61,011 nucleotides of DNA, from positions 1-61,011 of the forward strand of contig CALHQW010000023.1 in NCBI GenBank assembly GCA_938040315.1, in the 5' to 3' direction. The notes under the pieces are model-generated. The model saw only the letters and a program-made list of their open reading frames with translations, ran no database searches and was not told where the DNA came from. Both the position numbers and the translations under genes were made by a program. Below, one piece after another: positions 1-55,341 of the stretch; within the stretch, counting starts at the first letter, position 1; each line of letters opens with the position of its first letter. This DNA is from an uncultured bacterium. GTDB lineage: Bacteria > Hydrothermota > Tepidihabitantia > Tepidihabitantales > DTDR01.

Positions 1-3000
1 ATTACTACATACTGATAAAGAATCGCTATACCTCACACCATAATAATAAATTGGAAATGGCAAAGGAATCCTTATTGTTTGGTCATCACCAGTTATCGGC
101 AATCTCACACCAATATTTCTTATCTCAATCCATTCAAAAGGCTCACACTGCTGATAAAAGGTATCAATATCGTCATAGGCATAATATAATGGCTCAGGTT
201 GACGATTATCAGGTATTGGATCAGTAATCGTTAATCTGCCAATTGGTATTAAGAAAGTTGTTATTCTTTCGTAATTATCAGCATACAACTTTAATGTACA
301 AAGGATTTCTGTCTCTGGTCTAATTAATTGGGAAGCAAACACTTTAAAATGGTCGTTAAAGTTAATGGCTGTGTCGCCTTTCAAAACAGTTCCAAAGTTA
401 GCAAAGGAGTCAATTATTGTAAATAAAGTATCCGAACTCTTTAAGATAGCATAGACATTATAGCCATGCCCCAAACCAGTATTCTTTATTTTTATTAAAA
501 CATCAGCAGTTTCTCCTGGATCAATTCTACCATTGGGTCTTTGGGAAAAGGAGTCTTTTACAAAAAATTCTTCATAGGATATAACAGGTGTTCCAACGGT
601 GATTGAAAATCTCGAATACCAAATAGAGTCATAAGCATCTTTTATTTTTAATGAACAAAGAACTGAATAACCATTTGTTAAATTATTGGAAAGAATTAGA
701 TTAAATCCGTTTTCTCCGGTAAATGCTGAATCACCGCCAGGAATATTACCAAAAAATTTTACAGTATCATTATAAGTAACATTGGTATCACGACTAAAGA
801 AATACCCATACACACTATCGGCTTGTAATTCACCAAAATTTTTAACCCATAAAGAAATTTCTAACTCCTCACCAGGATTTGGTATGCCGTCACCATTTCC
901 TCTTGGTGGATCATCATTAATTAAATGGCGGCGATAGGCAACATATCGTCCAGTAGGAATAACTAATATTGAGTCTTCATAAGGATAAAAGTTTCTTCCG
1001 CTGACTGTTAATAATATATTTCCGGGTGTTTGAGGAGTTACATATAAAGTTATTTCACCACTGCTATTTGTTTTTCCTTTAACATAAACTTCCTCTCCTT
1101 TCCATAAACAAACCAAAGCACTTTCTACCGGTGTTCCGTTTGATAAAACACTAATACTTACTGGAACATTTGAGCCAACCGGAATAACAGCAGGAAAATT
1201 TATTTCTGCCTGAGTAATAGTATCAGTCCATAATAAGATTAAAGGACAACCAAAAAGATTTCTTTCGTAGGCTTCCCAACGAAATCTTGAAGAATCGGTC
1301 ATTGGCCATAATGGTCTTAACTGATCTTTAGAATGGGCAAGCGCTTCACCCACATACACATAAGCAGAACATAAGGGATGACGACCAATCGGTTGCCTTG
1401 GCAAGAATTTATAGAAAAAATGATAATTATAATATTCAGCAACCCTTACCCATCCATATCTCGAATTCATCATTACAGCAGCAAACCCATTTGGAGAATG
1501 AGTTGTCATATATTCAGCAATACAATCGCCAAGAGAATAATCAAAAGCTCCTGTATGACAACAAACAGCAGTGAGAATATTTAATCGATTGGTATTAGTC
1601 AAACCCATCATCATTGAAGTTGTAACTGAACCACCAAGATCGTAAGAAGTTTCGTTTCCATGCGCAATAACTGAAGTATACCCATACCCAGAATTTAATG
1701 AATCACAGTATCTCTGCGGTGTTGGCGTTATACTACCGCCAGACATATACATCCGACAACCAAACCAATTGGCAGGCATGGCATAATATATGGAATCATT
1801 ATAGTTTTGTGAGAAAGTAACTCCTACTGGCAATAAAACTTTTATAGGATATAAAGTTGAATTATCTGGTGTTTTTTCAAATCTAAAAACCTTGGAAATA
1901 TATCTTGTTATCTCTTCCAAACTATCAGCAGTAATCATTCCTACATAAACATCAGAATAACCATCCACTGAGTCAGCCACCTCACCAAATATATTATTTT
2001 GGTTAAAATCCCAATCTCCATCTAAATCAGAAAAATATAAATCACAGGGAAGAGTATCACGATAGGTCCCGGAATAATAAACATAGGCTCGCCGGTATTG
2101 CCTTGCCGGATGGTCTTGTCTAACAATGAAAAAGAAAGGTGTTTGCCAAGTAGTATCAGCATCTTTTATAAAATTCCTCATTTTTTCTGGTAAGTCTCTA
2201 CCTGGATAATTATTTTGGATTTCTTCAATTGGCATTACTATACTTGGATAACCCTGTTTATTTCGCCAATATAATAGAGAAGAACACGCAGGAACAAACA
2301 TATTTGGGGTAATAATCACATACTCGTAATAACCAGGTGGCAAATACAAACTTCCTTTTTTACCTAAGTTATTTTCAATATAGGGTGAAAATCTATCCGC
2401 GTCCTCCGGATTACATACCATTTTATAAATACTCGATAAAAGCAATTGTCTTTTCAATGGCGAAATTCTTTTTATTGGTATATCTTTTTCCTCGTAAATA
2501 ATTTTTACTTTTAAGGAAGTAATGAAATATAACTCTCTTTTTGCTGGAAGATAACGAATAGGAAATACCAAAAAGCTACCGATTTTAAAACCACCTTTAT
2601 TACCAGTATTTAGATAGTTAATTATTTTTTCCGGATAAATCTTATTTAATGAATAATACTCTTCTTTTGGTAAAACAAACTCCCTTTTTTCTTGATTAGG
2701 AGACCAAGTCTGAGCATATTGAATAGGATATAATAGATATTCACCTGGAATCTTTAATTCGTTCATTTCTAAGATTTCTACATCTTTTAAATAAGCATTC
2801 GGCGGAATAACACAAGAAATAGGAATCACAGGTATTTGAGGTGACCCCAAGGGACCTTCATAATAAGGAGCATCAAATAAATCAACAACTGTGTAACCAT
2901 CCTTTTGAGTTATATAAAGGGCACTCAAAGGAAAATCAATTTTTTTAACGATTTCTCCACTAAAAGCATAAAAGATAATAAATAATAAAAAAATTATTAA

Positions 3001-3713: not shown

Positions 3714-3741
3714 TTGACTTTTTACAAATTTTTAGTATAAT
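3714..3741 (+). promoter_or_regulatory. Strong promoter for the non-coding RNA at 3.75 kb
   Basis: TTGACT (3714-3719), a 16-base spacer and a perfect TATAAT (3736-3741). This is the same pattern that precedes real genes in this window (for example 4994-5021 and 20678-20705), yet no ORF follows on this strand; only the structured element does. Confidence 0.75.
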
Positions 3742-3747
3742 TATTTC

Positions 3748-3916
3748 TAATGAGTTTGATACTATTAAGTATAAATAATTTTACTACGGAGAGAAGAAAG
3801 GAAAAGGTTCAGGTATCCTATTTAAAAAACCTCCTTATTTTCATTCAGACTAATCGACCCTCCTTTAATTGGCCTGAGCCTAACCACCCCACTTTCTTCT
3901 CTCCGTAGATTTTTAA
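3748..3916 (+). ncRNA. Candidate structured small RNA with two anti-Shine-Dalgarno loop motifs
   Basis: Predicted transcript of about 165 bases with no ORF. It contains a perfect 17-bp closing stem (CTACGGAGAGAAGAAAG at 3784-3800 with its complement at 3892-3908). Inside is a second helix, GGTTCAGG (3806-3813) with CCTGAGCC (3873-3880, one G-U), extended by CC (3817-3818) with GG (3871-3872). The remaining loop of about 52 bases is pyrimidine-rich and displays CCTCCTT twice (3830-3836 and 3859-3865), complementary to the AAGGAGG sites used by this genome. The long stem followed by ATTTTTAAT could act as a terminator. It is convergent with rtcA and ends at its stop codon. No match to 6S, SRP, tmRNA or RNase P signatures was recognised. 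Exact ends are uncertain. Confidence 0.55.
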
Positions 3917-4941
3917 TAAATCTCTACTAACCCCTCCTCTTCTTTAATTGTAAAATTTTTTTCTGGAAGAAAATTTTTTATTACCCAAAGGTTGGTTTTT
4001 AAATGGTTGGTAATTTTATTAGTTTTATAACGACAGAAAATATTACTTAATACAATAAAAACTGGTAATTGATCAGCAAGATGATAATCTATCACACCTT
4101 TACTATTATAATATTCTAAAAATTCCTTTACTGCCTCTTCGGCTACTTTTTCTGCAGGTTTACCAATTTCGCCCAAGGAAGAAAATCCCGCTACAATATT
4201 TTCAAATTGTGCCAAAATAAAAGTGTAAGTACCCGGCGAAATACTTTCAACTTCTTCAACAGTTGTTTCCGGATTAAAATTTTTTAAAAGTTGATAAGCT
4301 TTTTCTACTTGTCTGTGAGCAATACTTTTATCTAATTTTCCTACTTTGGAGATAATTTTTATCTTTTCTAACTTTCCTCTTTCTAAAAATTCTATAATAT
4401 TCTGATTTCCTTTTTTAAAAGGTTCTACTTCTAAAATTACTTTTCCGTCACCAACGGGATAAAAACCATATCTCTCAATTTTTGCTTTACAGAAAAAAGA
4501 AAACTTTTTTATGGTAGGAATAAGTATATTTTCTAAATAATCAAATATTGGACTAAAAGGAACATGAGTACCTCCTTCTAAAATTACCTTTGAAGGTTTA
4601 GAAGCAAAAAATAAAACTGGTAAAATTGCCTGAATGACCAAAGTTATTGCACCAGCACTTCTTTTCTTTTCAGCCACATTGAAATAATATTCACCACCTA
4701 TTATGTTTTTAGGGATGAATTTTAAAGAGAGTGAATAAAGTTCATTATTTTCTACAGTAGCCTCACATATTTTAGCAATAGCATTTATTCCGGTTAAATG
4801 TTGAGGTAAAATACCCGGTTTTTTTCTTCCCTTCCTTATATTAATAATAAAAAAAGGTTTTTTAAGACAAGCAGATAAACTTAAAGAGGTTCTTAAAATT
4901 TGACCACCACCTTCACCATAAGAACCATCAATAGTTAGCAT
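3913..4941 (-). CDS. rtcA: RNA 3'-terminal phosphate cyclase
   Basis: Converts RNA 3'-phosphate ends to 2',3'-cyclic phosphates using ATP through a covalent histidine-AMP intermediate. The 342-residue length is normal for the family. The N-terminus has DGSYGEGGGQILRTSL (nucleotide-binding GEGGGQ), the middle has GGTHVPFSPIFDYL, and the C-terminal region has DYHLADQL, where His287 should be the adenylylated residue. No rtcB ligase, rtcR regulator or Ro-like protein is visible beside it. A TTGACT at 4975-4980 (minus strand) with a weak TAATTA box places the predicted start within a few bases of the ATG, and no Shine-Dalgarno is seen. Confidence 0.93.
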   Translation of the reverse strand: MLTIDGSYGEGGGQILRTSLSLSACLKKPFFIINIRKGRKKPGILPQHLTGINAIAKICEATVENNELYSLSLKFIPKNIIGGEYYFNVAEKKRSAGAITLVIQAILPVLFFASKPSKVILEGGTHVPFSPIFDYLENILIPTIKKFSFFCKAKIERYGFYPVGDGKVILEVEPFKKGNQNIIEFLERGKLEKIKIISKVGKLDKSIAHRQVEKAYQLLKNFNPETTVEEVESISPGTYTFILAQFENIVAGFSSLGEIGKPAEKVAEEAVKEFLEYYNSKGVIDYHLADQLPVFIVLSNIFCRYKTNKITNHLKTNLWVIKNFLPEKNFTIKEEEGLVEIY

Positions 4942-54986: not shown

Positions 54987-55026
54987 TTTTTACCTCCTTT
55001 CCCTGCCAGGAGGGAAATGTTTTATC

Positions 55027-55211
55027 GGACTTGTGACAGGTCTCCTGACTTGCAACCATACCTATTCCGCCTTCCCATCGGTAAAAAACCGACAGTGGCA
55101 TTTGGAATAGGCATTTTGGTTGCTCACAGTGGGCAGGACCGTGGCGGATTTTCACCGCCTTCCCTGACACCAGAAAATCTGGTGCTCCGCTGGTGCGGAC
55201 TTCACAAGTCC
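55027..55211 (-). ncRNA. Cobalamin (B12) riboswitch
   Basis: About 185 bases on the minus strand. P1 is a perfect 10-bp helix (GGACTTGTGA from 55202-55211 with TCACAAGTCC from 55027-55036). The B12 box reads GCAAGTCAGGAGACCTGTC (about 55034-55053). Core elements GTGAAAATCCGCCACGGTCC, CTGCCCACTGTGA and GATGGGAAGGCGG are all present. The expression platform (54990-55026) has TTTCCCTCC upstream of AAAGGAGG, so the start site can be hidden or freed: translational control of the receptor is likely. It begins 45 bases after tRNA-Leu with no good promoter between. Confidence 0.95.
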
Positions 55212-55255
55212 AATAAATATAATCCTCAACCATTTTCCCAAATAATTATAAAAAG

Positions 55256-55341
55256 TGCCGAAGGAGGGAGTCGAACCCTCACGAGGTGTCACCCTCAGTG
55301 GATTTTGAGTCCACCGCGTCTTCCAGTTCCGCCACTTCGGC
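55256..55341 (-). tRNA. tRNA-Leu (CAA)
   Basis: 86-base class II tRNA on the minus strand: acceptor GCCGAAG/CTTCGGC, anticodon stem GTGGA/TCCAC with loop CTCAAAA (anticodon CAA, reads TTG), long variable arm TGAGGGTGACACCTCG, T arm GGGTTCGACTCCC. Discriminator A; CCA not encoded. Confidence 0.96.

Follow-up and report, generated by a model that had tools for sequence, protein, structure and literature searches.

The window (the whole stretch of DNA analysed here, 61,011 nucleotides) harbors an RNA gene that faces the convergent gene rtcA. Comparison among related genomes shows a non-coding RNA that is conserved, occurs in one copy and has a promoter of its own; its predicted length is about 130-165 nt. 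Its predicted shape is a rod, in which two stacked stems carry a large apical loop that would display one or two anti-Shine-Dalgarno (anti-SD) motifs together with further C-rich single-stranded patches. The features of the locus are as follows.

3714..3719, + strand: -35 element TTGACT, identical in both genus-mates (promoter overall, 11 of 12 consensus positions)
3736..3741, + strand: -10 element TATAAT, separated from the -35 element by a 16-nt spacer
3749..3783, + strand: conserved, A+T-rich 5' leader, part of the predicted transcript
3784..3800, + strand: 5' arm of the outer stem P1 (17 bp, perfect)
3805..3813, + strand: 5' arm of the inner stem P2, AGGUUCAGG (9 bp)
3828..3837, + strand: anti-SD motif 1, AACCUCCUUA, core CCTCCTT at 3830-3836, in the apical loop (unpaired probability 0.88)
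3856..3867, + strand: anti-SD motif 2, GACCCUCCUUUA, core CCTCCTT at 3859-3865, in the apical loop (unpaired probability 0.97)
3873..3881, + strand: 3' arm of P2, CCUGAGCCU
3882..3891, + strand: C-rich 3' internal loop, AACCACCCCA (equivalent C-rich loop in families f3 and f4)
3892..3908, + strand: 3' arm of P1
3910..3914, + strand: T-run after P1 (T-rich tract 3' of P1 in most members)
3913..4941, - strand: rtcA, RNA 3'-terminal phosphate cyclase (PF01137), convergent neighbour of the RNA gene

From the promoter geometry, the transcript would be expected to start near 3748-3750, and P1 with the T-run following it is probably the terminator. The near-consensus promoter (TTGACT-16-TATAAT), the perfect 17-bp stem and the second stem noticed in a preliminary description of this DNA are all present; the two CCTCCTT motifs likewise lie in the loop as described, although the apical loop between the P2 arms measures 59 nt rather than about 52. 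The folding of the RNA is significant (z = -5.2; none of 200 shuffles equal). The antisense strand also folds well, as expected of an inverted repeat, and folding energy alone is no guide to the strand. The + strand is nevertheless supported by the promoter, which is always found on this side, by the T-run after P1, and by conserved G.U pairs, whose counterparts on the opposite strand would be A.C mismatches. CCTCCTT occurs at 99 sites on both strands of a 358-kb sample of the window genome (approximately 1 per 7 kb per strand); since the motif is so infrequent, two copies within one 59-nt loop, kept in three genomes, are not attributable to chance. In the 5' leader (3749-3783), the bases TATTAAGTATAAAT are invariant among the three copies of family f1, to which the window genome belongs, and perhaps represent an additional promoter element near P1.

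The preliminary description had also stated that no open reading frame follows the promoter. A 52-codon frame (3750-3908) does in fact start with an ATG 8 nt 3' of the -10 element; the implied absence of a coding sequence appears nonetheless to be correct. A leaderless small protein gene would fit the position of this ATG, which is 8 nt from the -10 element in the window and in one relative and 12 nt in the other, and the in-frame TAG located where P1 ends. Between relatives, however, the ratios of nonsynonymous to synonymous codon changes are 7:0, 9:1 and 6:1, the frame is interrupted in the loop by frameshifts, and there are three different C-termini. Because the changes are almost all nonsynonymous and the frame is broken, it does not look coding, and we assign scarcely any probability to a protein product.

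The RNA was found in 23 of the 28 genomes of the WOR-3 order, distributed among four families: all three genomes of f1, all five of f4, the one genome of f5 and 14 of the 18 of f3. It was not found in the other five of the 28 genomes, including the one f2 genome. The candidate division WOR-3 is at present listed as the phylum Caldifarciminota. Elsewhere in the phylum, a filtered first-look search (147 genomes searched in all) yielded nothing convincing, and exact motif matches outside the order either were without the fold or resembled the antisense of ribosome-binding sites. Both genus-mates retain the whole locus, including the promoter, at 88% and 80% identity. The gene occurs once in the window genome and in one copy per genome in the relatives, and not as a dispersed inverted-repeat element (MITE); dispersed copies with target duplications, which the preliminary description had named as the sign of a transposable repeat, are thus not what is seen.

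The more distant members were identified by inspecting the region 3' of rtcA in other families, which revealed the copies in G006 (f5) and G009 (f3), with a similar one in G011. The G009 copy served as a query that reached further genera, and a motif pattern provided additional members; a covariance model (R2) detected G005 (f4), and the remaining four f4 genomes came from a motif search with relaxed criteria, each newly found relative being used as the next query. A model built from the genus only (R1) recovered only that genus, and R2, which is based on f3, did not pick up f1 or f5 when genomes were scanned, with unfiltered scores of 14-21 bits. In view of the lack of a strong R2 score, it is the architecture, the motif, the promoter and the bridge provided by f4 that relate f1 and f5 to the other members. 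In the f2 genome (G003), where the RNA was not found, 13 sites match the motif pattern with one mismatch, CATTTTAACCTCCT (reverse complement AGGAGGTTAAAATG) among them. In raw number, these exceed such sites in the RNA-bearing f4 genomes, and a difference in the usage of ribosome-binding sites is possible.

All 22 members checked possess the long outer stem and the inner stem, and all 22 have a promoter that matches 10-12 of the 12 consensus positions (12 of 12 in four). P1 comprises 9-18 bp and P2 7-14 bp; the offset at which P1 starts differs between members, and the leader is short in f3 and f5 and extends about 40-50 nt from the -10 element to P1 in f1 and f4. The P1 arms have little sequence in common among different families, and their pairing is held throughout. 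Among 13 diverged f3 members, 95.7% of the cells are paired and 11 of 22 pairs have changed on both sides, a signal that is matched in none of 500 shuffles and disappears once the structure is shifted by a single column. Within the genus, three stem pairs have changed on both sides and are still paired; in P2 of G001, CAGG/CCTG is replaced by TGGG/CCCA, with both sides changed.

The anti-SD core AACCUCC of motif 1 is present in 22 of 23 members, and folding of 16 representatives predicts motif 1 to be largely unpaired in every one (0.71-0.99). Covarying stems and unpaired motifs, which the preliminary description had proposed to look for in relatives, are therefore both observed, the latter as a prediction; its pair of CCTCCTT motifs is true of f1 and f4, but in the other families the first motif alone is constant. 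The exceptional member, G004 (L069, RNA at about 1500-1640, minus strand), has the sole broken anti-SD core, AACUCC (CATCTCAAACTCC). Motif 2 reads CCUCC in f1 and f4, and CCCACC or CCUCCC in f3 and f5 where it is not absent. A small hairpin, usually with a C-rich loop, lies between the positions of motifs 1 and 2 in f3 and f4, and the C-rich 3' internal loop is found in f1, f3 and f4. The f4 copies (L191-L195) exhibit CCCACCC on the 5' side of the apical loop and a CCCC hairpin loop, which form a third and a fourth exposed C-rich patch.

The proximity of rtcA was first taken as a sign of a functional link, favoured by f1, f5 and genus g7. The two genes are convergent in f1, where they touch, and in f5, where they are close, and in G009 and G011 rtcA is co-directional and just upstream of the RNA. 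A cis element of rtcA, such as a terminator used by both genes, a structure in the 3' UTR or a means of antisense control over the convergent cyclase, would fit these arrangements; in E. coli, moreover, RtcB-type repair is connected to 16S tails without an anti-SD (PMC12186496). The link was rejected, since genera without rtcA (g3, g10, g12 and g13) retain the RNA. Moreover, in G005 and G013 the RNA and rtcA are far apart, relative orientation differs, and the usual neighbour in f3 is a convergent pdxA-like gene (a call made by sequence, not by profile search); in G005 unrelated genes flank the RNA. Synteny between the window and G001 is limited to the rtcA side, and together with the differing neighbours this renders a cis role unlikely. 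Given the distribution of the RNA, control of rtcA in cis is largely refuted, and we hold it to be very improbable.

Searches against Rfam 15 gave no family at gathering score and only weak chance matches, among them one to MIR529. Like 6S RNA (RF00013), the present RNA is rod-like, has a sigma70-type promoter and occurs in one copy; unlike 6S RNA, it is without the 6S-type central bubble and is about 130 nt in length. It has no RF00013 match, and a separate 6S candidate exists in the same genome (G000:C6:37389-37566, E = 1.2e-7, just under the gathering score), with 6S above the cut-off in 20 genomes of the order. The long end stem, the pyrimidine-rich loop and the nearby rtcA also recall bacterial Y RNAs and the RNAs of RNA-repair operons. 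The RNA is, however, not tied to rtcA, and a Y RNA was rejected for lack of a Ro60/Rsr partner gene: a TROVE/Ro60 gene was found in none of 61 genomes searched, and the control genome was positive. An Hfq-dependent trans-acting sRNA was similarly discarded, since Hfq was found in none of the 28 genomes, with five control genomes positive.

The closest parallels in action are sRNAs that present anti-SD sequences in loops. NfeR1 (alpha-r14) silences mRNAs at the initiation region independently of Hfq (PMC10746234), and the 'cuckoo' RNAs of the Rhizobiales carry CCUCCUCCC loops (PMC3927594). These RNAs and the present one share an ultraconserved anti-SD core in loops, variable stems and more than one motif. 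The alpha-r14/cuckoo RNAs consist of three (or four) hairpins with CCUCCUCCC in each, whereas here the motifs lie in one apical loop of a single rod, the core is AACCUCCU(U) (CCUCCUU in the window) with a CAU extension, and there is a C-rich internal loop; the phylum is unrelated and a sequence relation is without support. By its core and its shared apical loop, the RNA falls outside this group. LhrC1-5 of Listeria are multicopy and stress-induced, with CUCCC(..)UUUU sites in the loop, linker and terminator (PMC4132741). The resemblance lies in several redundant CU-rich sites, one of them in a loop, in the predicted cover of the SD, and in a target interaction for which Hfq is not required; the RNA described here is single-copy and differs in motif and fold, which excludes it from the LhrC family. 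If our reading of the loop holds, the RNA would resemble all of these sRNAs in action without being a member of any group.

In f3 and f4 motif 1 is extended to GCAUCUYAACCUCC, the exact complement of an SD+5+AUG arrangement (GGAGG-N5-AUG), and in f5 to UCAUCUCAACCUCC. Several exact matches outside the order, elsewhere in the class, read AGGAGGTTAAGATGC and are start-site-like; because these sites resemble real starts, the loop can be regarded as the antisense of a ribosome-binding site of general type. A conserved mRNA with a perfect 13-nt complement was not found, and a single perfect target of the 13-nt motif was rejected on this basis. The sequence GGAGGTTGAGATG occurs almost only on the RNA gene itself. 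This scarcity speaks against a single conserved target with a perfect match, and favours either pairing through short seeds to several targets, in the manner of NfeR1 and LhrC, or a different partner.

In a 358-kb sample of the window genome (G000: the window plus L252-L266), 130 of 335 genes (39%) have an SD sequence. A -10 element at leaderless distance precedes 58 of the 205 SD-less genes (28%), compared to 2 of the 130 SD genes (1.5%) and 5.7% of control positions. Leaderless transcription thus looks common in this genome, judging from these promoter positions, and the mixture of SD-led and leaderless-type genes presumed in the preliminary description is borne out. Predicted pairing of the loop to initiation regions has a median of -14.9 kcal/mol for SD genes versus -6.8 for leaderless-type genes, and pairing this good with SD genes was reached by none of 100 shuffled loops; the contrast in energy is largely a consequence of the anti-SD core alone and ignores accessibility.

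The most likely reading, to which we give an even chance, is that of a trans-acting, Hfq-independent RNA that occludes the initiation regions of SD-led mRNAs. The exposed AACCUCC core, extended in most lineages to CAU-N5-CCUCC, would pair with these regions and block binding of the 30S subunit, and mRNAs without an SD would escape; P1 would shield the ends of the RNA and, together with the T-run, stop transcription. Against this reading stand the broken core of G004 and the conservation of P2 and of the C-rich 3' internal loop, which suggests that more than anti-SD pairing constrains the RNA, perhaps binding to a protein. A protein is central to the main rival, which we judge rather unlikely: the loop would act as a decoy that mimics the 3' tail of 16S rRNA (AUCACCUCCUU) and sequesters a factor that reads the tail (the GTPase Era, a maturation or hibernation factor, or a toxin nuclease that cleaves the anti-SD), or it would capture S1, Rho or cold-shock proteins through its C-rich patches. 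The core of the loop, ACCUCCUU, is indeed identical to the 16S tail and similarly exposed in single-stranded form, although here on a separate small RNA, a potential competitor of the tail for SDs or for the proteins that bind it. Era reads AUCACCUCCUUA (PMC9032327), several more unpaired C-rich patches are conserved, and there is no conserved perfect mRNA partner, all of which agree with a decoy. The CAU-N5-CCUCC of f3, f4 and f5, on the other hand, fits a whole ribosome-binding site and not the 16S tail, and f1 keeps neither the AUC of Era nor the CAU.

A constitutive structural or housekeeping RNA, whose anti-SD-like loop would serve as a tertiary or protein contact, is consistent with the near-consensus promoters, the one copy per genome, the presence in most genomes of the order and the rod shape. 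It is nonetheless an unlikely reading: 6S RNA is separate, no Rfam family matches, and the RNA was found neither outside the order, in the filtered first-look search, nor in five of the 28 genomes inside it. In a bolder version of occlusion, which seems about as unlikely, the RNA would be a global translational selector: an abundant antisense copy of the complete ribosome-binding site, with anti-SD and CAU at their natural distance, would lower the translation of all SD-led mRNAs and so shift a mixed genome to leaderless ones. Such a molecule would be to RNA regulation what the anti-SD-less ribosomes made by MazF are to ribosomes. Leaderless-selective ribosomes are made in E. coli by removal of the anti-SD and repaired by RtcB (PMC12186496), and a possible link to an anti-SD RNA that often lies beside rtcA is attractive.

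The idea that the preliminary description had put forward, an anti-SD RNA combined with a largely leaderless genome, is plausible but unproven; anti-SD sRNAs are already known in alphaproteobacteria and Listeria, and only the combination would be new. A literature search found no sRNA work on this phylum, and the RNA represents an order-wide gene that is missing from Rfam 15. It offers a simple testable case of an RNA that may act on the whole class of SD-led genes in a genome with many leaderless-looking ones, and it suggests more than one origin for RNAs with anti-SD loops, without Hfq. The window also contains an ordinary cobalamin riboswitch (55018-55221, - strand, 91.7 bits), with a tRNA-Leu (55255-55341, - strand) directly upstream on the same strand.
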